A stretch of 64,000 bases of DNA from positions 124,001 through 188,000 of the forward strand of contig JAGPUW010000014.1 of the NCBI GenBank assembly GCA_018069465.1, written 5' to 3'. The notes beneath the pieces were generated by a model. It worked only from the letters and a program-made list of their open reading frames with translations. It did not search any database and had not been told where the DNA came from. This DNA is from Gammaproteobacteria bacterium (GTDB lineage: Bacteria > Pseudomonadota > Gammaproteobacteria > Pseudomonadales > Porticoccaceae). Made by a program: the position numbers and the translations under genes. Shown piece after piece: positions 23,642 through 31,583 of the stretch. Within the stretch, counting starts at the first letter, position 1, and each line of letters starts with the position of its first letter.

Positions 23642-23676
23642 ATAAAAAAAACGGAGATCGCATAGCGACCTCCGAT
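23642..23676 (-). terminator. Intrinsic terminator of the YeeE/YedE operon
   Basis: On the minus strand a 10-bp stem with one mismatch (23674-23665 with 23661-23652) and a 3-nt loop is followed by a run of eight Ts (the A-run at 23644-23651). It lies 33 bases after the last YeeE/YedE stop. Confidence 0.75.
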
Positions 23677-23708: not shown

Positions 23709-24140
23709 TCAAAAAACTTTTGCCAGGGGCTTGGCCAGTAACATGCCGAGAATCATTACGGGCACAAAAATGAGGGTTGTTGTGTAGCCATAGCTCAAGC
23801 CAGCAATGGCTGGGCCGGGGCAGTAACCCACTAGGCCCCAGCCTGCGCCGAATAGAACGGCACCAATTATCAGGGGCTTGTCGATGTCCGTTCTGGTGGG
23901 TAGGTGGAAGGTGTCATCAAATAATGGCGCGGGGTTTTTCAATATAAATTTGTAACCAATAAAGGTGACGAACATACCGCCGGCCATAACGAAGGCGAGG
24001 GTTGGATCCCATGCCCCGGCGAGGTCGAGAAAGCCCTGCACTCTTTGTGTGTTGGTCATGCCCGATATGGCCATGCCGAGGCCAAAGACGATGCCGGAGG
24101 CAAGGGATGCCATGAGTCGATATCTTTTCTGCAGAGTCAT
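23709..24140 (-). CDS. YeeE/YedE family membrane protein, second copy (DUF6691-like)
   Basis: The 143-aa protein has four hydrophobic helices. It shows the YeeE/YedE signature GIVFGLGMAISGMTNTQRVQGFLDLAGAWDPTLAFVMAGG in the first half and GAGWGLVGYCPGPAIAGLSYG in the second, including the conserved Cys of GYCPGPA. YeeE-type proteins move thiosulfate or other reduced sulfur across the inner membrane, and half-size pairs like this one accompany persulfide-detoxification genes under BigR control. Three bases separate it from the preceding copy, so they are cotranslated and probably form one complex. Confidence 0.85.
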   Translation of the reverse strand: MTLQKRYRLMASLASGIVFGLGMAISGMTNTQRVQGFLDLAGAWDPTLAFVMAGGMFVTFIGYKFILKNPAPLFDDTFHLPTRTDIDKPLIIGAVLFGAGWGLVGYCPGPAIAGLSYGYTTTLIFVPVMILGMLLAKPLAKVF

Positions 24141-24143
24141 TTC

Positions 24144-24563
24144 TTATCCTCCAAAAACATGTTTGAGTAGGTAAACACAGATAAAGCCTGCGGCCATAAA
24201 TGTGCAGGTGGCGACCATTGATCGCGGCGAGAGGCGCGAAATGCCGCAAATACCGTGGCCGCTGGTGCAGCCGCTACCCAGGCCTGTGCCGAGGCCCACG
24301 GCGAGGCCACCGATGATGACGAGGATGGTACTGGTGTCGGGTACGGGGGGGGCAAAACTGTCAGATATCAGCGTGGGGATGGCGCCACCAAGGGCGATGC
24401 CAAGCACAAACAGAATACGCCAAAGGCGCTCGCCACTGCTGTCGGAAAAGACGCCCGACAAAATGCCACTGACGCCAGCGATGCGGCCTTTAAGGCCCAT
24501 CATCATCACGGCGGCGAGACCGACGAGGCCACCGCCAATAAGTGCTAGTACGAATGGGTGCAT
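24144..24563 (-). CDS. YeeE/YedE family membrane protein, first copy
   Basis: The 139-aa half-size sulfur transporter homologue has four helices. It carries GGLVGLAAVMMMGLKGRIAGVSGILSG near the N-terminus and GLGTGLGSGCTSGHGICGISRLSPRS near residue 95, the diagnostic YeeE loop with its Cys pair (SGCTSGHGICG). It lies 46 bp downstream of the persulfide-dioxygenase-like gene and directly upstream of its partner. The hydrolase plus two half-YeeE order matches BigR-controlled operons known from Agrobacterium and Xylella. Its likely role is export or uptake of a sulfur species such as sulfite or thiosulfate. Confidence 0.86.
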   Translation of the reverse strand: MHPFVLALIGGGLVGLAAVMMMGLKGRIAGVSGILSGVFSDSSGERLWRILFVLGIALGGAIPTLISDSFAPPVPDTSTILVIIGGLAVGLGTGLGSGCTSGHGICGISRLSPRSMVATCTFMAAGFICVYLLKHVFGG

Positions 24564-24609
24564 AATTTTTACCTGTATTTGCGTTGGTGTTCGAAAGCGC
24601 CTGTGCGCT

Positions 24610-25461
24610 TTATTTGCCGATTTGATTCAAGGGTATTTTCAAGTACGCCACACCGTTATCTTCTGGTGTCGGTAATTGGCCGGCGCGGATATTAACCTGA
24701 ATAGCCGGCAATATCAGTACTGGCATTTCGAGGGCAGCGTCACGTTCCTTGCGCAGCTTGATAAAGTCATCGGCACCCGATCCCTGCACATGGATGTTGT
24801 TGCGCTGATCGGCAACCGTGCATAAGTACTGGGGGTCGCTGCCCGCTTCAGGGTAGTCGTGGCAAAGGTAGATGCGAGTGTCGTCGGGAAAGCTGAGAAT
24901 GCGCTCTAGCGATTGATAAAGGGTGCTGGCATCGCCGCCGGGAAAGTCGGCGCGGGCAGTGCCGTAACGGGGTGCCAGGAAGGTGTCACCGATAAAAAGG
25001 GCATCGCCGATTTGGTAGGACACGCAAGCGGGTGTGTGTCCCGGTGTTGACAGTACTTTAATGCTCAACTCACCCAAGGTGAGGGTATCACCTTCGCCCA
25101 GTAGCAGATCAAACTGGCTGCCATCGGTGGCAAAATCCTGCATATTGAAAACGCCTTTGAACACTTCCTGCACCGCAGGCACATTGGCACCGATGCCGGT
25201 TTGCCCACCGCATTGCTCTTTGAAATGGGGAGCTGCGCTCAAATGGTCGGCATGGGCGTGGGTTTCAAGAATATATTTGAGGCTCAGATCTCGCTGTTTA
25301 AGGTCGCTAATAACCGCGTCGGCCGAGTGGGTGGCTGTGCGCCCCGAGCGATAGTTGAAGTCGAGCACCGGGTCGATAATAGCCGCCTGCCTGGAGCTTG
25401 TATCCCACACCAGATGGGTAAAGGTTGCGGTGTCTTTGTCGAAATAGGTTTTAACTTCCAT
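24610..25461 (-). CDS. MBL-fold persulfide dioxygenase-like hydrolase (Blh/ETHE1 type)
   Basis: A 283-aa metallo-beta-lactamase-fold protein. It has HAHADH at residues 68-73, TPGHTPACVSY with the next metal His, FIGDTFLAPRYGTARADFPGGDA with the bridging Asp, and LCHDYP. The RADFPGGDA and LCHDYPEAG segments belong to the ETHE1/Blh group, which oxidises glutathione persulfide to sulfite using a mononuclear iron. It is the first gene of an operon with two YeeE/YedE proteins. Its upstream region (25462-25771) carries A/T-rich elements shared with the divergent ArsR-RND promoter region. This is probably a sulfide and persulfide detoxification unit. Confidence 0.86.
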   Translation of the reverse strand: MEVKTYFDKDTATFTHLVWDTSSRQAAIIDPVLDFNYRSGRTATHSADAVISDLKQRDLSLKYILETHAHADHLSAAPHFKEQCGGQTGIGANVPAVQEVFKGVFNMQDFATDGSQFDLLLGEGDTLTLGELSIKVLSTPGHTPACVSYQIGDALFIGDTFLAPRYGTARADFPGGDASTLYQSLERILSFPDDTRIYLCHDYPEAGSDPQYLCTVADQRNNIHVQGSGADDFIKLRKERDAALEMPVLILPAIQVNIRAGQLPTPEDNGVAYLKIPLNQIGK

Positions 25462-25512
25462 GGTATAGACCTCAGGGCTAAGCGAGGTCTTATTATATTA
25501 GTTATTTATACA

Positions 25513-25530
25513 TTAGCAATATATAAAGTA
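25513..25530. promoter_or_regulatory. Candidate ArsR/BigR operator, copy 1
   Basis: TTAGCAATATATAAAGTA, 52 bp upstream of the persulfide-dioxygenase-like start, matches the element at 31189-31206 at 16 of 18 bases. It is embedded in a strongly A/T-rich stretch (25487-25550) with further ATTAG/CTAAT half-sites. Confidence 0.6.
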
Positions 25531-25561
25531 TACTAATCTAATATATGAAAAGGGTTTTATA

Positions 25562-25579
25562 TAAGCAATACATAAGTGA
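25562..25579. promoter_or_regulatory. Candidate ArsR/BigR operator, weaker copy 2
   Basis: TAAGCAATACATAAGTGA shares AGCAATACATAA with the element at 31189-31206 and lies 32 bp beyond copy 1. It may be a second binding site in the same promoter region. The rest of the 310-bp gap up to 25771 shows no gene. Confidence 0.4.
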
Positions 25580-25771
25580 TTTACGGAAAAGCCGGGACAA
25601 GTCGTTGCTCGCACTCGACGGCGATGCCGATGAAGGCATCATTAGCGGCACTGGTTAGTGGTATTCACAAAGCGCAGGTGAGTGCTAATCACAAGGGATA
25701 AGCATGATCAGGCTGGGCAGGAAATATAACGCCAGGTCAATGTGCCACATGGCGTCATAGGAGGCATGCCT

Positions 25772-26143
25772 TTAATCATCAATGCCTTCGGGAATGGCCT
25801 GGTCTTTACTCCAGGCGTCAAAACCACCATTGAGGCTGTAGATGTTGGAAAAGCCCATGCCTTGCAGGGTCGCGGCGGCAAGAGCAGAGCGGCCTCCCGA
25901 TTTGCAATAAACAATGATGGCTCCGTCGCGGTCGGCAAAGGCGGGGTTATTTTCAATGCGCATTTCGAGTACCCCGCGAGAAATATGCTGGGATCCCTCG
26001 ATATGCCCGGCGTCGTTTTCAACTTTTTCTCTGACATCGAGCAGGCTGATATTGCCCTTGCCAATCAGCTCTTTGGCCTCGGCAAGTTCAATGCAGCGGA
26101 CTTTAGATTTGGCTTCTTTAATAAGGTCGAGTGCACTGGTCAT
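25772..26143 (-). CDS. Single-domain rhodanese (sulfurtransferase)
   Basis: The 123-aa protein has the rhodanese fold with the active-site loop IVYCKSGGRSALAA, whose Cys carries the persulfide. It also has LLDVREKVENDAGHIEGSQHISRG, the usual CH2A-type region. It would transfer sulfane sulfur between thiols such as glutathione and thiosulfate. It is the last gene of the run that starts with the RND transporter (69 bp after the barrel gene) and lies just upstream of the persulfide dioxygenase promoter. This is a second reason to tie the transporter run to sulfur metabolism. Confidence 0.88.
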   Translation of the reverse strand: MTSALDLIKEAKSKVRCIELAEAKELIGKGNISLLDVREKVENDAGHIEGSQHISRGVLEMRIENNPAFADRDGAIIVYCKSGGRSALAAATLQGMGFSNIYSLNGGFDAWSKDQAIPEGIDD

Positions 26144-26212
26144 GGTTTTCTCCGTTAAAAAATACTGTGGTTGGCGGTTTGGTAAAGCTTGCTGTTATTG
26201 ATACTTGATCCC

Positions 26213-27637
26213 CTAAAAACTATAGCGCAGCCTGGCAAAAAAATTGCTGTTCTCTTCAAACTGGCCAAAGAAAGTATAGTCATCCTGGCCACCGAACAGG
26301 TTTGCACCCACTTCGCCAGACCAGCTGTCAGACAAGCGGTAGGTCACTTTTGGCATGGCGAAAAAATCATCGTCCGTGGGGGAATAAAAGACAAAAAGCG
26401 AAAGCGTTAATTTATCCTGATAGGCGCGGTAGTTCAGCCGGGTGGTGATTAAGTGCCGATACTCTTCGACTTCTTTATCGGGCAGCGGCGAATTTTTTTT
26501 CAGCGCACTGTAATCCTGAGTCCACTCCAGGTAGTACTGCAGGCCGAGGGTCAGGCGGGTGATGAGCTCCCGCTCGAAGCCGCTTAAAAAGCGCAGCTGG
26601 CTGTTGGGGATGAAAGGGTCGGTGCCGTCGCTATCGTCGCGGGACTGATACCAGGCGACTTCCATATTGGCGATGCCACCTTGTACCGTACCGCGCACAC
26701 TGGCGCCAATAGACGATAGTTTGGGGAAGTAATTCAAGCCATTGTTTGGATTGAAGGCGGCGGGGGTTTTGAAATAACCGTGGTAGCCGTAGAGAGCCCA
26801 CTCATAGCCACCAATGTTTTTATAAACCCTGAGGGCGAGTTCACCGTCATCGAGCTGGCTTCCCGGTTGCTCTGTTGATAGGCGGGGCGGGGCGGCGACA
26901 ATGTCGTTGGCCAGAGGTGAAAAGTAGCTGAAGCGCTCGCCGCGAATAAACGTATCCGCGTCGAATTTCGGCGTCCACACCAGGTCGATATTGGCAAGTT
27001 TATGAAAATAGCTGGCCTTAATCGCGTCGGAGGGGGCTTTCAGGTACTCCATGTCGCGGCCGGCAAAAAAGGATACCCAGTCTTTGGGGAAGAGGTCGTT
27101 GAGAAAGAGCAGATCGCCGGTGCCCCAGGTCAGTACCTGGCGGCCGAGGTAAAGGTCACTGTTGGCACTGGGTGAGAAGCGCAGCAGGGCTTCCCGGCTT
27201 TTGGTTTCGATAAAGGCGCCGCCCCAGCTGAGATCGTCAACAAAGGCATCGCCCTTGTAGCCAATATAGAGGGGGCCAAAATAGTCGGAATACTCGATGC
27301 GCAGTCGCGTTTCGTTCAGGGTGTCGTGCCGGTCAATCCATGGATTGCTTTGACTGCGGGTGCCGTAGGCGACTTCGATAAAACCGTGAAAGGGCGATTT
27401 GCTCTCGGCCTCGTCACCCCACTTTTCGCTGCCCCAGCCTTGATCTGAACTTTCGTCGCTGGAGCTTTCGTTATTGGTGTTTTCATTATTGGAGCTTTCG
27501 CTATCGGAACTGGCGACAGTAAAGCTCGCGTCCCAGGCGGGTGCGGTGGGCAGAGCCTCGGGCGTTGCGGCGCAGGCGAGCGCCGGGCCAAGCAGCAGGG
27601 CGGCGGCAAGCAGGGGGCGCAAGGCAGCTATAGTCAT
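26213..27637 (-). CDS. Outer-membrane beta-barrel protein of the RND operon (DUF1302-like)
   Basis: I place the start at the ATG at 27637, 8 bases after the previous stop; a GTG at 27664 is also open. The 474-aa product has a signal peptide (LAAALLLGPALACA) and then an Asn/Ser/Glu-rich linker (SSDSESSNNENTNNESSSDE, about residues 45-65). A long run of alternating aromatic strands ends in a C-terminal Phe (FFARLRYSF), as in outer-membrane barrels. Segments such as RLRIEYSDYFGPLYIGYKGDAFVDDL and LYLGRQVLTWGTGDLLFLNDLFPKDWVSFFAGRD resemble the DUF1302/porin-like partners often encoded with MMPL transporters. It is probably the outer-membrane part of the export system. Confidence 0.75.
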   Translation of the reverse strand: MTIAALRPLLAAALLLGPALACAATPEALPTAPAWDASFTVASSDSESSNNENTNNESSSDESSDQGWGSEKWGDEAESKSPFHGFIEVAYGTRSQSNPWIDRHDTLNETRLRIEYSDYFGPLYIGYKGDAFVDDLSWGGAFIETKSREALLRFSPSANSDLYLGRQVLTWGTGDLLFLNDLFPKDWVSFFAGRDMEYLKAPSDAIKASYFHKLANIDLVWTPKFDADTFIRGERFSYFSPLANDIVAAPPRLSTEQPGSQLDDGELALRVYKNIGGYEWALYGYHGYFKTPAAFNPNNGLNYFPKLSSIGASVRGTVQGGIANMEVAWYQSRDDSDGTDPFIPNSQLRFLSGFERELITRLTLGLQYYLEWTQDYSALKKNSPLPDKEVEEYRHLITTRLNYRAYQDKLTLSLFVFYSPTDDDFFAMPKVTYRLSDSWSGEVGANLFGGQDDYTFFGQFEENSNFFARLRYSF

Positions 27638-27645
27638 TAGCGGGG

Positions 27646-28446
27646 CTATTTTCTTTTGAACCACTGCTGAGGTGGGTTGCGCAGTGAGCGCTCGGAAAAA
27701 ATGTCATCCGGTAAGCCAATGCCGTAGTGAATGTAGCGCATTTCGGTGAGGGTCGAGCCGCCCGAGCGCAGGTCTGATGCCTTCATTTTTGTGGCGGTGG
27801 CAAAGCCGTCAATATCCTTGATTTGCAGGGCTTCAATGCGGCGGTAAACCTTGCCTGCGCTATCGGTGTACTCGGTTTTTACCGGCATCCAGTTGCCCTT
27901 GTCTATCCACACGGTATAAAAGGCAAACTCGACGCTGGCGGGGTCCAGCGGTGTGTTTTTTACGACATAGTGCTGCTCTGTGCCAGCTAACAGTTCGTGC
28001 TTATCGGCGCTCAGACTGCGCCCTGAAATGTCTTCATAAAAGAAATGGGAGCCGACAAAGCTGGTTCTTTTATCGCCAGAGGAGATACGTTTCACCAGGT
28101 CGAGGCCGGGCAGGTAGAGCCAGCGGTCATCACTGCCGCCGATATGTTTGATGACGCGAAACATTGTATTGCGAACATCGGCGGGCCGACTGAAGAGCAC
28201 CAGAAAATCCTGATCGGCATCGTCCGGCTCGTTGCGATCTTTGCGCAGAATGGTGAATTGGCGAACCTGTTTATTGCCTCCGCCGTCGGTAATGAGCATG
28301 CGAGACTCTGCGCGGCCATCGACGCCCTGATAAAAAGCGACGTGGTTGGCCTTGCTGACGATCAGATTGACATCGCTTTCATTGGCACTGGCGACATTTA
28401 TTGCGCACGCCGCACTGAGCCCAAGGCATTTAAAAAAGTGATTCAT
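27646..28446 (-). CDS. LolA-like outer-membrane lipoprotein-sorting protein
   Basis: The 266-aa protein has a signal peptide (cleavage near ASA, residue 20). The mature part belongs to the outer membrane lipoprotein-sorting group with a LolA-like fold: MLITDGGGNKQVRQFTILRKD, FLVLFSRPADVRNTMFRVIKHIGGSDDRWLYLPGLDLVKRISSGDKRTSFVGSHFFYEDISGR, and WIDKGNWMPVKTEYTDSAGKVYRRIEAL. Such proteins are thought to carry a lipid from an MMPL-type pump across the periplasm. Its ATG overlaps the transporter stop (ATGA), so the two are translationally coupled. The barrel gene follows 8 bases later. Confidence 0.83.
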   Translation of the reverse strand: MNHFFKCLGLSAACAINVASANESDVNLIVSKANHVAFYQGVDGRAESRMLITDGGGNKQVRQFTILRKDRNEPDDADQDFLVLFSRPADVRNTMFRVIKHIGGSDDRWLYLPGLDLVKRISSGDKRTSFVGSHFFYEDISGRSLSADKHELLAGTEQHYVVKNTPLDPASVEFAFYTVWIDKGNWMPVKTEYTDSAGKVYRRIEALQIKDIDGFATATKMKASDLRSGGSTLTEMRYIHYGIGLPDDIFSERSLRNPPQQWFKRK

Positions 28447-31037
28447 TGTGCTTTCTCCTGATGTTTTCCAAACAGTGGGCCTTTAAGGTAGGTCATCAAT
28501 ATAGGCAATATCACCAGGGTGGTGAGGCAGGAAATAATCATAATCGCCGCGAGAAACATGCCCACGGTGTTGTAGGGCACCAGTGGCGATAGTAAAAGCG
28601 GCAGGAAACCAATGGCGATAACAATGGCATTTCTTGAGATTGCCCGCGCCGGTTGTTCAAACATCAGTGGGATTGCCTTGTCGAAACTGCCGTGTTTATC
28701 GACCAGCTCCCGCAGACGCTGGACAAAGTGAATGGCAAAGTCGACGGACAAGCCCAGTGACAGCGCCGATAGTATGGCCACGGGCATGTCGTAGTCTTTA
28801 CCTGCCCAGCCAACGATACCGTAGATAAAGAGGATGGTGGCCGACAGCGGAATCATGGCGAGTAAGCCAAAGAGGATGGAGCGAAACAGGAAAATCATCA
28901 TCATCGAGACCACGGCAAAGGCGCCGAGCAGGCTGGTGACCATGCCGTTGACCATGGCTTCCTGCCAAACAACGTTGATATAGGTCAGCCCAGCCCAGCG
29001 CATTTCTACTCCGGCAGGTAGTGGGTGGCTGAGCCGGTAGTCGTCAACAAAGTCGACCACCTGGCTCATGTCGACGTTATCGCCACTTTTTAGCTGTAGC
29101 CAGATTGAGGCAGAGCGCTGGTCGGGTGTCACCAGTCGCCATAAATCCTGGGGTCGGTGGGATGACTGATAGCTAAGTAAGGTCTGCGCCACGGCCGCCG
29201 ATGAATCGGGGATGCGGTAATTGTCGGCGCTGCCCCCGTTCAATTCGCGGTACACGGTTTTCACCACATCGGTGACGGAGTTACTTTTACCGACGATGCC
29301 CGTCGTCAACAGTGCTTGCTGTAGCGACTCTATATAGGCCAGCGCCTCGGGCTGTTGAAAATATTTGCTGGCACTGAGTTGCTCGTCGGTTGCCGCTAAT
29401 AAGGCGTCGAGATACACCCCTTGATCTTCGGCAGCGGCGAACAGTTGGTCGTCGAGTTGCAGGGCCAGGTTTTGCAGTAGTAGCACCAGTGGGCTGCCGG
29501 CGTCGCCAGCTGCTATCGATGTTTTGGCCTTTTCTTGCAGCTGTTGCCACAGGGGTGCTAGCTCGATGCCCGCAGCTTTAGCTCGCTCAATAATGGCCTG
29601 AGTGTTGTTGTCGAAGTCAGTTTTGAGTTCGGCTTCGTTGTGTTGCTCGAGCACCAGAAAGGCATTGTAAGTACCGGCAAAGTGCTGGTTGAGTATTTTA
29701 TCGGCGACCCGCAAGCGGTGAGATTCCTGAAACCACTGAAAGGGGTTGTCATTGATGATTATTTTGCTAACCCCGATAACACTGACGACGGTAATGAGTG
29801 AGAAGGCGAGCAGTAGGATTTTGGGACGCGCCAGGCTGCCCTTACCCAACGTTTTTAAACTGCGGGCCAGAGGACTGTGGTTGTCATCGTGGGGGGTGGT
29901 TGCCGCCAGCTTTTGCAGCCGCTCGGGCGATAGGGAAATAACGTAGGCGGGAATAAAGGTAATGGTCAGGAAAAAGGCCAGCATCACCCCGAAGGCGATA
30001 AACAGGCCGAAGACTTGCACCGGCGGGATGGGGGTGAGGGCAAGTGCGGCAAAGCCGATGGCCGAGGTCAGTGAGGTGTAGAGCATCGGCGTGTATAAAT
30101 GCTCGATCACCTCGCGCATGGCCGCTTCTGGCGTGGTGTCCTTATGGTAGCGATCGGAAAACTCGGAGAGCAGGTGCACCGAATCGACCACGGCGATGGG
30201 CATCAAAAAAATCATGATCATTGAGCTCATGATGTGCACGGTATAGCCCATACCAATCAGCAGCCCCATGGTGCAGATGATGCTCACCATCGCCAGAATC
30301 ATCGGCGAGGCGATCAGTGACAGGCTGCGGAAAAAGTACCACATCAACAGAAATACCAGCAGCCCGGCAACGGGGGCGGAGGTGGCCATTTGCAAAAACA
30401 TTTCCACACCAAAGGTGTCTTCGGCGACCGGTAGCCCGGTGATGTAAAAGCTGTCCTCGCTGTCGAGGGTGTCAATAATATCCTCGACTTCGGCGACGAT
30501 CCTGTAGGACTGATCTTTGTGCAGAATTGGTATGTACACCGCGGTGGCAATGCCGTCGGGTGAGACGATGGTGTTGTTGAGGAAGGGTAGATTTTCGACG
30601 GCGCTGCGAATTTCGCTGGCGGCCTGGCTGGTGCTCGGTGGCTGATTCATCATCCACTGAAAGCGAATGGTGCCGGGGCCATCCTGGGAAATATTGTCGA
30701 CTGTGGCCAGTGAGAGCACGTCCTGGGGCACGATGCCGTCGATTTTTAATATTTCATTGGAGAGCTTGTGCAGGGCCTCGAGGGAGCGAGGGTTGTAGAT
30801 GCCCTGTGCCCCTTCATTGATCATGCCGACGACGATCAGGTCGTTGATGCCAAATTTCTTTTTTACCTCTTCGTGGAAAACCCGGTCGGCCTGGTCGGAG
30901 GGCAGCATGTTTTCGGGATCGGTATCGATAATAATTTTGGGCAACATGGCACCGAAGACGATCACTGCGAGCAGCATTAACTGAAATACGCGTTTCGGGT
31001 GATGGAAGGCAAAGTTAATCAGGTGTTCTTTGATCAT
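28443..31037 (-). CDS. MMPL/RND family transporter
   Basis: An 864-aa inner-membrane protein from the ATG at 31037, preceded by AGAG 8 bases upstream (the frame is open further, to 31121). Two repeats each have a helix, a large periplasmic loop and five helices. The first set includes MILAMVSIICTMGLLIGMGYTVHIMSSMIMIFLMPIAVVDSVHLLSEF, with the proton-relay Asp in helix 4. The second includes LSALSLGLSVDFAIHFVQRLRELV. This is the SSD-bearing MMPL layout for moving lipids or sterol-like molecules. It is the first gene of the transporter, LolA-like, barrel and rhodanese run, divergent from the ArsR regulator. Confidence 0.87.
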   Translation of the reverse strand: MIKEHLINFAFHHPKRVFQLMLLAVIVFGAMLPKIIIDTDPENMLPSDQADRVFHEEVKKKFGINDLIVVGMINEGAQGIYNPRSLEALHKLSNEILKIDGIVPQDVLSLATVDNISQDGPGTIRFQWMMNQPPSTSQAASEIRSAVENLPFLNNTIVSPDGIATAVYIPILHKDQSYRIVAEVEDIIDTLDSEDSFYITGLPVAEDTFGVEMFLQMATSAPVAGLLVFLLMWYFFRSLSLIASPMILAMVSIICTMGLLIGMGYTVHIMSSMIMIFLMPIAVVDSVHLLSEFSDRYHKDTTPEAAMREVIEHLYTPMLYTSLTSAIGFAALALTPIPPVQVFGLFIAFGVMLAFFLTITFIPAYVISLSPERLQKLAATTPHDDNHSPLARSLKTLGKGSLARPKILLLAFSLITVVSVIGVSKIIINDNPFQWFQESHRLRVADKILNQHFAGTYNAFLVLEQHNEAELKTDFDNNTQAIIERAKAAGIELAPLWQQLQEKAKTSIAAGDAGSPLVLLLQNLALQLDDQLFAAAEDQGVYLDALLAATDEQLSASKYFQQPEALAYIESLQQALLTTGIVGKSNSVTDVVKTVYRELNGGSADNYRIPDSSAAVAQTLLSYQSSHRPQDLWRLVTPDQRSASIWLQLKSGDNVDMSQVVDFVDDYRLSHPLPAGVEMRWAGLTYINVVWQEAMVNGMVTSLLGAFAVVSMMMIFLFRSILFGLLAMIPLSATILFIYGIVGWAGKDYDMPVAILSALSLGLSVDFAIHFVQRLRELVDKHGSFDKAIPLMFEQPARAISRNAIVIAIGFLPLLLSPLVPYNTVGMFLAAIMIISCLTTLVILPILMTYLKGPLFGKHQEKAQ

Positions 31038-31169
31038 GGTTTCGACTCTTTTTATTTTTTTAAAGAGGTGTGAGCGAACCAGCTGCGTTTGGCGTGCATG
31101 AAATTGTGTACACCAAGGCAATGTTCCTGGTTACCGTAAAATCTCAGACCAATATAGATATAGCTTTAT

Positions 31170-31206
31170 TGTATTAGCATATATTATTTTAGCAATACAT
31201 AATGTA
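31170..31206. promoter_or_regulatory. Candidate ArsR/BigR operator in the divergent promoter
   Basis: TGTATTAGC (31170-31178) and AGCAATACA (31191-31199) form an imperfect inverted repeat. The right half extends to TTAGCAATACATAATGTA (31189-31206), which matches 25513-25530 at 16 of 18 bases. It lies midway between the RND start (31037) and the regulator start (31275), so it could control both. Confidence 0.6.
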
Positions 31207-31274
31207 GTGACATGGAATTCACCAGAACGGCTAGATAATCGCTATTCAATAAAATACAGAGGGGGATTGACACA

Positions 31275-31583
31275 GTGGATGTAGATTTAGCTGACTTGGC
31301 TGCTCATGCCAGTGAGGCGGAGGCTTTACTCAAGGGGCTGTCGAACAGCAATCGCTTAATGGTGCTTTGTGCCTTGAGTGATGGCGAGTTGTCGGTGACG
31401 GAGTTGAATGAGCGCATACCCCTCAGTCAGTCGGCGCTGTCCCAGCATTTGGCGACCTTGCGCAAGGCGGGCATGGTGGCGACGCGGCGGGAATCGCAGA
31501 CCATTTACTACCGTCTCGACGACCCCAAGGTGAGTATTATTATTGAGGCTCTGCACGGCATGTTTTGTGGGGCGCTCGCATAA
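31275..31583 (+). CDS. ArsR-family repressor of the BigR/SqrR/YgaV type
   Basis: A 102-aa winged-helix regulator. Residues 18-31 (LLKGLSNSNRLMVL) form the first helices, ELNERIPLSQSALSQHLATLRKAGMV the recognition helix, and ATRRESQTIYYRL the wing. The metal-site CxC of arsenic sensors is absent. Instead there are two cysteines, Cys32 (VLCAL) and Cys98 (MFCGALA), at the places used by BigR, YgaV and SqrR to sense sulfide and persulfides through a disulfide or polysulfide bridge. The GTG start follows GAGGGGG. It is divergent from the RND operon, with a shared palindromic element between. It probably represses itself, that operon and the persulfide dioxygenase operon. Confidence 0.88.
   Translation: MDVDLADLAAHASEAEALLKGLSNSNRLMVLCALSDGELSVTELNERIPLSQSALSQHLATLRKAGMVATRRESQTIYYRLDDPKVSIIIEALHGMFCGALA

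Follow-up and report, generated by a model that had tools for sequence, protein, structure and literature searches.

The 64,000-nucleotide stretch of DNA analysed here (the window) raises the question of why an RND-type transporter run should be encoded back to back with an ArsR-family regulator and next to a persulfide dioxygenase operon, and what such a transporter might export. Every gene listed in the first-pass annotation was found at its position. The regulator (31275..31583, + strand, GTG start) is divergent from a pump run on the minus strand that comprises an MMPL/HAE3-like RND superfamily inner-membrane pump of 864 aa (28443..31037; the start was set at the ATG at 31037, and the longest frame opens farther upstream), a LolA-like periplasmic carrier (27646..28446), a predicted porin-like outer-membrane beta-barrel (26213..27664) and, last in the run, a single-domain rhodanese (25772..26143). 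The pump and LolA-like frames overlap by 4 bases and the LolA-like and barrel frames by 19 bases, and the gap between barrel and rhodanese is 69 bp. A 310 bp spacer containing a second promoter separates the rhodanese from a persulfide dioxygenase (PDO; 24610..25461, minus strand), which is followed on the same strand by two half-YeeE genes, one matching Sulf_transp PF04143 (24144..24563) and the other DUF6691 PF20398 (23709..24140), and by a terminator-like hairpin (23652..23674, minus strand) picked up by consensus scan only.

The regulator has two putative sensor cysteines, one within VLC in helix 2 and the other within MFC near the C terminus, both of which align with those of HlyU and form a pair of the HlyU type. 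Judged by these residues it belongs with the two-cysteine persulfide-sensing ArsR proteins (HlyU, SqrR, BigR and YgaV), and the nearest solved structures are HlyU, followed by SqrR, BigR and YgaV. It is not a BigR equivalog, scoring 100.9 bits with NF040642 against a cut-off of 155. HlyU of Vibrio, the closest solved relative, reacts with persulfide but not with H2O2, and differs in its described target, a hemolysin, according to the available portion of PMC10509353. The same C1C2 cysteine labels apply to an ArsR protein near each of 20 further loci that encode the pump, LolA-like protein and barrel together (hereafter the triad).

The pump is of the MMPL type within the RND superfamily (117.7 bits with Pfam MMPL, cut-off 20.5). 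HAE3 (TIGR00921) is its top-scoring NCBIfam model, but the score of 186.2 bits lies under the cut-off of 351.9 and we therefore call it only HAE3-like. It is weakly similar to the hopanoid transporter HpnN, which with MmpL3 appears among its matches to solved structures (HpnN as 6wu0), and it falls far short of the NCBIfam cut-offs for HpnN itself (50.1 bits against 1100 and 107 against 751.85). The carrier is a member of PF17131 (177.5 bits, cut-off 30) and over its whole length also of DUF1329 (30.1 bits, cut-off 23.1), and its fold matches 9tp6 (Z 27.9, rmsd 2.3, 233 aligned) and 4z48 (Z 26.3, rmsd 2.9, 232 aligned). The barrel has no Pfam match at 0.001. Its predicted model (pLDDT 71.6) nevertheless has a beta-barrel fold over the mature protein, as expected of a porin-like outer-membrane protein, with the OprD/Occ and AlgE folds nearest (3jty, Z 20.6, rmsd 3.6, 305 aligned; AlgE 5d5d, Z 20.3, rmsd 4.2, 309 aligned). 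No cysteine is conserved in the pump, LolA-like protein or barrel across the triads (highest column 23%), which argues against a covalent sulfur carrier.

The closest worked example, by analogy, is AmeABCD of Castellaniella defragrans, which protects against apolar monoterpenes and is proposed to export apolar compounds; in both cases the gene of an HAE3 RND pump (HAE3-like in the window) lies together with those for an outer-membrane protein and a periplasmic protein of the LolA superfamily, DUF1329 (available text of PMC6394551). The window run differs in having no additional gene at the AmeC position and no DUF1302 match in the barrel (the barrel of locus L036 has a marginal one, 0.031), and its context is sulfur rather than monoterpene degradation. 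We accordingly regard the two as working alike and not as members of one type. HpnN is likewise an HAE3-type RND pump, and works without a periplasmic or outer-membrane partner as stated in the same text.

PDO and the two half-YeeE genes near an ArsR gene, together with the promoter element described below, give the locus the apparent make-up of a BigR operon. The accessible parts of PMC5823870 and PMC7315123 describe such operons in Xylella, Agrobacterium and Acinetobacter as an ArsR repressor with a persulfide dioxygenase and membrane proteins, two of the latter lying beside PDO2 in Acinetobacter, and do not include a pump, LolA-like protein or barrel; nor were these three present at the two plasmid loci inspected, both of which have genes for ArsR, PDO and YeeE. 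The window also differs in its regulator, which is under the BigR cut-off, and in its PDO, which corresponds to the dioxygenase part of the fused sulfurtransferase-dioxygenase Blh without the sulfurtransferase part (353.2 bits with NF040641 against 625, with only profile positions 143-422 of 423 matched).

The claim that both promoters share one element proved correct. An element ATTGCTAA-N11-CTAATACAAT lies upstream of the pump gene (31168..31196, minus strand), where it overlaps a sigma-70-like TTGCTA-N16-TACAAT, and ATTGCTAA-N11-CTAATATAAT lies upstream of PDO (25492..25520, minus strand), where it overlaps a promoter-like TTGCTA-N16-TATAAT; both are candidate operators. The best ungapped match between the two promoters is 26/36 over 36 bp, a score reached once when the full intergenic regions were shuffled 1000 times with dinucleotides preserved, and never in 1000 such shuffles of the cores. 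Allowing up to 2 mismatches, the 29-bp pattern ATTGCTAAN11CTAATANAAT occurs exactly twice in the 3.6-Mb genome, at these promoters, and exactly twice in the sister species G003, at the corresponding promoters, although as the pattern was derived from these very sites the finding is one of absence of other sites. Both copies fall on a sigma-70-like promoter (TTGCTA-N16-TAYAAT), so some of what they have in common is core promoter.

Many relatives have ATTAG-N6-CTAAT sites ahead of the pump. The pattern [AT]TTAG-N5-7-CTAA[AT], which was picked after inspecting these same sequences, is found up to 200 bp before the pump at 11 of the 20 loci with a two-cysteine ArsR and at none of 20 control MMPL loci (shuffles: mean 0.17, maximum 2), and a looser T[AT]AG-N6-CT[AT]A at 12/20 of these loci, 6/28 other triads and 1/20 controls. 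The 3.0-Mb genome of G407 has just two exact operator sites, one before the pump and the other before PDO, and G1025 has the same operator at the pump and at a PDO on a separate contig. The exact palindrome is missing from nine of the 20 two-cysteine loci, namely the window, G003 and seven more; the window contains no perfect ATTAG-N6-CTAAT site, and in both it and G003 the CTAA half-sites are arranged differently. In G711, G838 and G906 the triads do bear the palindrome and the distant two-cysteine ArsR genes have none around them, and none lies within two alphaproteobacterial ArsR-PDO promoters that were searched.

The triad is an old unit, found at 57 loci in several phyla, and a quick tree separates 52 triad pumps, as a single clade, from 18 controls (SH-aLRT 100). 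An ArsR, SQR, PDO or rhodanese gene lies within 8 kb at 39/57 triad loci and at 0/20 other MMPL loci of relatives (p 2e-8; one-sided Fisher tests throughout, 57 triad-type against 20 other MMPL loci), and 23 of 37 lineages have at least one of the four kinds. ArsR genes are within this distance at 31/57 triads (0/20 controls, p 3.8e-6) and two-cysteine ArsR genes at 21/57 (0/20, p 5e-4). For SQR, PDO and rhodanese taken together the count is 20/57 (0/20, p 8e-4), with SQR and rhodanese HMM seeds that were drawn from triad loci; a recheck with curated models, covering ArsR and rhodanese only, found Pfam HTH_5 or Rhodanese no farther than 8 kb from 7/8 triads in the 17 genomes with the controls and, to the extent that the contigs allow, near none of the 20 control loci. 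SQR alone (8/57, p 0.08) and PDO alone (5/57, p 0.21) do not reach significance. At the genome level neither SQR of the L052 type (2/14 triad genomes, 23/279 others of the order) nor PDO (10/14 and 163/279) is enriched, and the best SQR match in the window's own genome is only 29%. Locus L041 of Bacteriovoracaceae repeats the gene order ArsR-MMPL-LolA-barrel-rhodanese-PDO. In G010 and G021, of the same family as the window, the locus lacks PDO and the adjacent ArsR.

The coupling of the exporter to a persulfide regulon is well supported by the shared element, the neighbour counts and the operator sites at pump and PDO, and we consider it highly probable that the exporter and the PDO operon share such a regulon. 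Against it stand the 18 of 57 triad loci with none of the four neighbour kinds, the lack of a perfect site in the window, the overlap of the window element with a core promoter, the absence of enrichment of SQR or PDO at the genome level, and the other types of regulator beside some triads. We infer repression, induction, energy source, transport direction and cargo as follows. The two-cysteine ArsR would repress both operons through the related promoter elements, and oxidation of its cysteine pair by persulfides would release both. One operon would carry out the usual chemistry with PDO and two half-YeeE channels; the other would encode a trans-envelope exporter, in which the HAE3-like pump would use the proton gradient to lift a hydrophobic compound out of the inner membrane, the LolA-like protein would ferry it across the periplasm inside a greasy pocket, and the barrel would provide the exit route. 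The likeliest cargo would be sulfane sulfur in a hydrophobic form, be it S8, organic polysulfides or a different membrane-dissolved sulfur adduct, accumulating during sulfide oxidation. On this reading the system would be induced by persulfide and would export a hydrophobic sulfur compound. Sulfane sulfur as cargo is put forward tentatively; the explanation as a whole, with two ArsR-controlled operons, a trans-envelope exporter and this cargo, we place just short of an even chance, and the more novel reading, in which the triad is switched on by the persulfide sensor and is devoted to exporting zero-valent sulfur (S8 or organic polysulfides) dissolved in the membrane, is somewhat doubtful. The earlier suggestion of a sulfur-induced envelope export system is partly supported: an exporter within a BigR/HlyU-type regulon is very likely given the two sensor cysteines, the shared element, the recurrent linkage and the G407 and G1025 operators, and its proposed sulfur-modified lipid cargo or role in membrane repair is possible.

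LolA folds bind acyl chains, and the triad could instead supply the outer membrane with a lipid (hopanoid-like, a glycolipid or a modified fatty acid) as persulfide accumulates, much as HpnN does with hopanoids. A stearic-acid-bound LolA is among the structure matches listed, the L093 cluster includes a fatty-acid hydroxylase gene, and the weak pump similarity to HpnN and MmpL3 points the same way; we nevertheless think lipid export unlikely, as the pump is so far under the HpnN cut-offs and gene maps inspected by eye revealed no recurring lipid-synthesis gene beside the triad. It is rather improbable that the triad is a general hydrophobe or xenobiotic pump taken up by several stress regulators, with sulfur control one among them and a cargo other than sulfur. 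Such a pump would be consistent with the effects of AmeABCD on monoterpene tolerance and Nile Red accumulation (in the part of PMC6394551 available), with iron-responsive Bacteroidota operons that combine MMPL and lipoprotein-sorting genes (PMC10434189, likewise in part), with paralogous MMPL-LolA-barrel sets of the same genus that lie beside neither ArsR nor sulfur genes (L118-L121, L123), and with the 18 of 57 triads near which none of the four neighbour kinds was found. However, linkage to these four sulfur-related gene kinds tracks this one clade and is absent at the 20 other MMPL loci.

That the two operons are adjacent by accident, the shared element being merely a strong core promoter, would fit its sigma-70 consensus and the arrangement in G010 and G021, but is very improbable given that in two genomes the element occurs at no other promoter than these two, that G407 and G1025 have the operator at both pump and PDO, and that the order of ArsR, triad, rhodanese and PDO recurs in Bacteriovoracaceae.

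To our knowledge, known persulfide regulons deal with reactive-sulfur oxidation or small-ion movement. The recurrent placement of the triad by sulfur-sensor genes across many distantly related bacteria suggests that sulfur detoxification has an export arm so far unrecognised. If the persulfide-induced export of hydrophobic sulfur is correct, it would be a third arm besides oxidation (PDO) and ion channels (YeeE/TauE), clearing sulfur in a form to which soluble oxidation enzymes may have no access; it would also offer a candidate route for extracellular sulfur deposition by Gram-negative bacteria, make the exit of elemental sulfur from these cells testable with one deletion, and assign a role to a clade of HAE3-like pump, LolA-like protein and barrel that is widespread and has no name. 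The view that an export chain was not known in BigR operons needs qualifying: one passing sentence of 2025 links two-cysteine ArsR genes with RND efflux pumps (PMC12423496), the only text among the literature matches listed to place RND pumps next to regulators of this kind, but section 2.1 of that paper describes no triad, operator, control or cargo, and the titles and abstract openings of the matches listed do not describe the triad in a sulfur regulon.

Other triads vary in their neighbours. An apparent SQR-MMPL fusion at L095 proved to be merely overlapping frames in a partly masked locus, and an FAD oxidoreductase upstream at L082, whose C-terminal domain is of the rubredoxin-reductase type, was left out of the SQR count; the SQR-like neighbour at L052 matches the solved SQR 3sz0 at 1.2e-149. 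ArsR proteins with other cysteine patterns lie beside L037, L039, L043, L083, L084, L108, L111 and L113, ArsR is fused to rhodanese beside L093 and L095, and regulators of the CsoR family (L046) and a two-component type (L047) are also seen. By eye, the HlyU operator tested in the available portion of PMC10509353 holds ATTAA-TTCAGA-CTAAA, one base from [AT]TTAG-N5-7-CTAA[AT].

Gene and domain searches recover the genes and domains named in the first-pass annotation. The minus-strand run begins with an MMPL-type RND pump of 864 aa, followed in order by a LolA_like protein, a barrel (together the triad, 26213-31037) and a single-domain rhodanese; a persulfide dioxygenase (PDO) and then two half-YeeE proteins (Sulf_transp and DUF6691) lie 310 bp beyond the rhodanese. 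Both cysteines that mark the persulfide-sensing group are present in the divergent ArsR, which among solved structures is closest to HlyU (2.8e-26), with SqrR, BigR and YgaV next; chain 13ct/6o8l, which its own listing titles an ArsR-family regulator, we take to be SqrR. Because it scores under the BigR equivalog cut-off, we refer to it as HlyU/BigR-type. A close relative has a DUF4395-rhodanese gene between the rhodanese and the second operon (L031:15270-16040, the gene on which the Pfam domain call was made), with a similar gene at L032:15388-16164; this gene is absent from the window at 25462-25771.

Relatives of the pump (E <= 1e-90) occur in 15 of 370 class, 12 of 397 phylum and 14 of 293 order genomes, counts that each include the window's own genome and in which some genomes are partial. 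An initial sample of 58 relatives gave 11 pumps that stood out, the window's own included, and collections of named genomes and of plasmids hold 15 loci and one (Ilyobacter) respectively. We examined 57 triad-type loci drawn from these sources, excluding L031-L033 and L040, which the matching lengths of their contigs mark as copies of L053-L055 and L092, and retaining loci truncated at contig ends (L034, L042, L103, L107 and others) as well as L105, in which neither LolA nor barrel is visible. The pump has both a LolA and a barrel gene close by at 51 of the 57 loci, against 7 of 20 control MMPL loci. A quick tree, made without L034, L042, L103, L105, L107 and two controls and flagged by the program for long control branches, places the 52 triad pumps in one clade separate from the 18 controls (support 100). 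The seven controls that are MMPL-LolA-barrel sets too belong to a different clade and are without ArsR. The same genus has a second, different set of this kind (L118, L119, L120, L121, L123), with a pump 26-28% identical, near which no ArsR or sulfur genes were found.

Using HMMs built for this analysis, at least one of ArsR, SQR, PDO and rhodanese was found within 8 kb of the pump at 39/57 triad-type loci and 0/20 controls; the controls belong to 17 same-order genomes, eight of which carry the triad, and 18 triad-type loci have none of the four within that distance. The individual counts among the 57 are ArsR 31 (two-Cys ArsR, the HlyU/SqrR/BigR/YgaV-like sensor, 21), rhodanese 15, SQR 8 and PDO 5, SQR alone (p 0.08) and PDO alone (p 0.21) being not significant against the 20 controls. 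When the count is limited to loci flanked by 3 kb or more on each side, the comparison becomes 31/43 against 0/14 and, as loci from one family are non-independent, we also counted by lineage, each named record being its own (23/37). Because the SQR and rhodanese seeds came from triad loci, a second search of the 17 genomes used Pfam models for two of the four kinds, ArsR and rhodanese: within the sequence that the contigs cover, no control pump has either of them inside 8 kb, and one or the other is present at 7 of the 8 triads, that of G052 having neither. For SQR and PDO the association is not seen at the level of whole genomes. With the triad, SQR and PDO searches (same settings, 293 genomes each) taken as one sample, SQR of the L052 type is found in 2/14 triad genomes versus 23/279 others and PDO in 10/14 versus 163/279, with no enrichment of either. 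Two genomes of the window's family (G010, G021) keep the triad, rhodanese and YeeE pair and are missing PDO and the adjacent ArsR.

Some triad loci have regulators other than the two-Cys ArsR. These include ArsR proteins with a fused rhodanese domain (L093:4311-5027, L095:12417-13088), another subtype of ArsR, encoded divergently from the pump (L083, L084, L108, L111, L113), in which a C-x3-C pair close to the C terminus (LCDIVC, for example) replaces the HlyU pattern, and a CsoR-family repressor (PF02583; L046:11455-11718) directly upstream of the pump, in the place of ArsR.

That the two window promoters share one element, as the first-pass annotation held, stands: 26 of 36 bases match, as good a match arising in 1/1000 shuffles (0/1000 for the cores). 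A 29-bp pattern derived from these same promoters has, at up to 2 mismatches, exactly two matches in the window's genome and two in the sister species G003, all at these two promoters, and none in G010 or G021 (backward control: 0, 1, 2 and 1 matches in the four genomes respectively). As the element overlies a sigma-70-like promoter, it represents core promoter and CTAA half-sites combined; we infer that the window ArsR binds it.

A palindrome, [AT]TTAG-N5-7-CTAA[AT], chosen after inspection of upstream sequences, lies within 200 bp before the pump at 11/20 two-Cys ArsR loci (shuffle mean 0.17, maximum 2, 500 shuffles; the 21st, L091, was left out as it is without upstream sequence), at 4/28 other triad loci (shuffle mean 0.13; these include L088, also counted in the two-Cys list) and at 0/20 controls. 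The window and G003 are among the nine two-Cys loci without it. Triads of G711, G838 and G906 carry the palindrome with no adjacent ArsR and have a two-Cys ArsR elsewhere in the genome, around which no site is found in 16-17 kb. Taken together, 13 genomes with two-Cys ArsR triads contain 76 ATTAG-N6-CTAAT sites (backward control, 39); by comparison with triad coordinates, 15 of these sites, in 11 of the 13 genomes, are at a triad promoter. G407 has two sites, before the pump and before PDO; in G019, G023 and G022, with one, one and two sites respectively, every site precedes the pump. G1025 has two further sites on another contig, before PDO and its neighbour, and nine others besides. This neighbour, a 403-aa protein just upstream of PDO (L178:7340-8551), has no Pfam hit. 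The HlyU operator, in the available part of PMC10509353, contains ATTAATTCAGACTAAA, one base off the [AT]TTAG-N5-7-CTAA[AT] pattern.

The nearest worked example is AmeABCD of Castellaniella defragrans, likewise an HAE3 pump with a LolA-superfamily and an outer-membrane protein; as far as the accessible text of PMC6394551 goes, deletion of these lowers monoterpene tolerance and raises Nile Red accumulation. On this analogy the present triad may export a hydrophobic compound. Since the clade accompanies SQR, PDO, rhodanese and a persulfide-type sensor, our first choice of cargo is a hydrophobic sulfur species, with lipid export second and general efflux third. Weighing against the sulfur reading are the 18 triad-type loci free of these neighbours, the lack of genome-level enrichment of SQR or PDO, the other regulators seen at some loci, and the missing PDO and adjacent ArsR in G010 and G021. 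The structure models give no indication of cargo: the LolA-like model (pLDDT 86.9) aligns with LolA3 from Porphyromonas gingivalis (Z 27.9), with DUF1329 4z48 and with 3bk5, and the barrel (pLDDT 71.6) with OprD/Occ porins and AlgE (Z about 20). Pump, LolA-like protein and barrel have no conserved cysteine; this speaks against covalent carriage of persulfide and is consistent with a dissolved cargo. The first-pass claim that such an export chain is new to BigR operons holds in part. Among the literature matches listed, triad, operator and cargo are nowhere described, but an association of RND pumps with two-Cys ArsR has already been noted: the portion of PMC12423496 available counts RND efflux pumps among the transporters that these ArsR genes seem to target.

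Two loci differ in architecture. At L090:8510-12220 cyclic-nucleotide-binding domains (PF00027, in two stretches) are fused to the N terminus of the triad pump, giving an RND transporter with a regulatory addition; the LolA and barrel of this locus lie upstream, not downstream. On plasmid pILYOP01 of the fusobacterium Ilyobacter polytropus (L082) the order is selD, a TusA-DsrE-type YedF gene, DUF3343, then LolA, barrel and pump, which hints at a sulfur or selenium connection at a locus with no ArsR.
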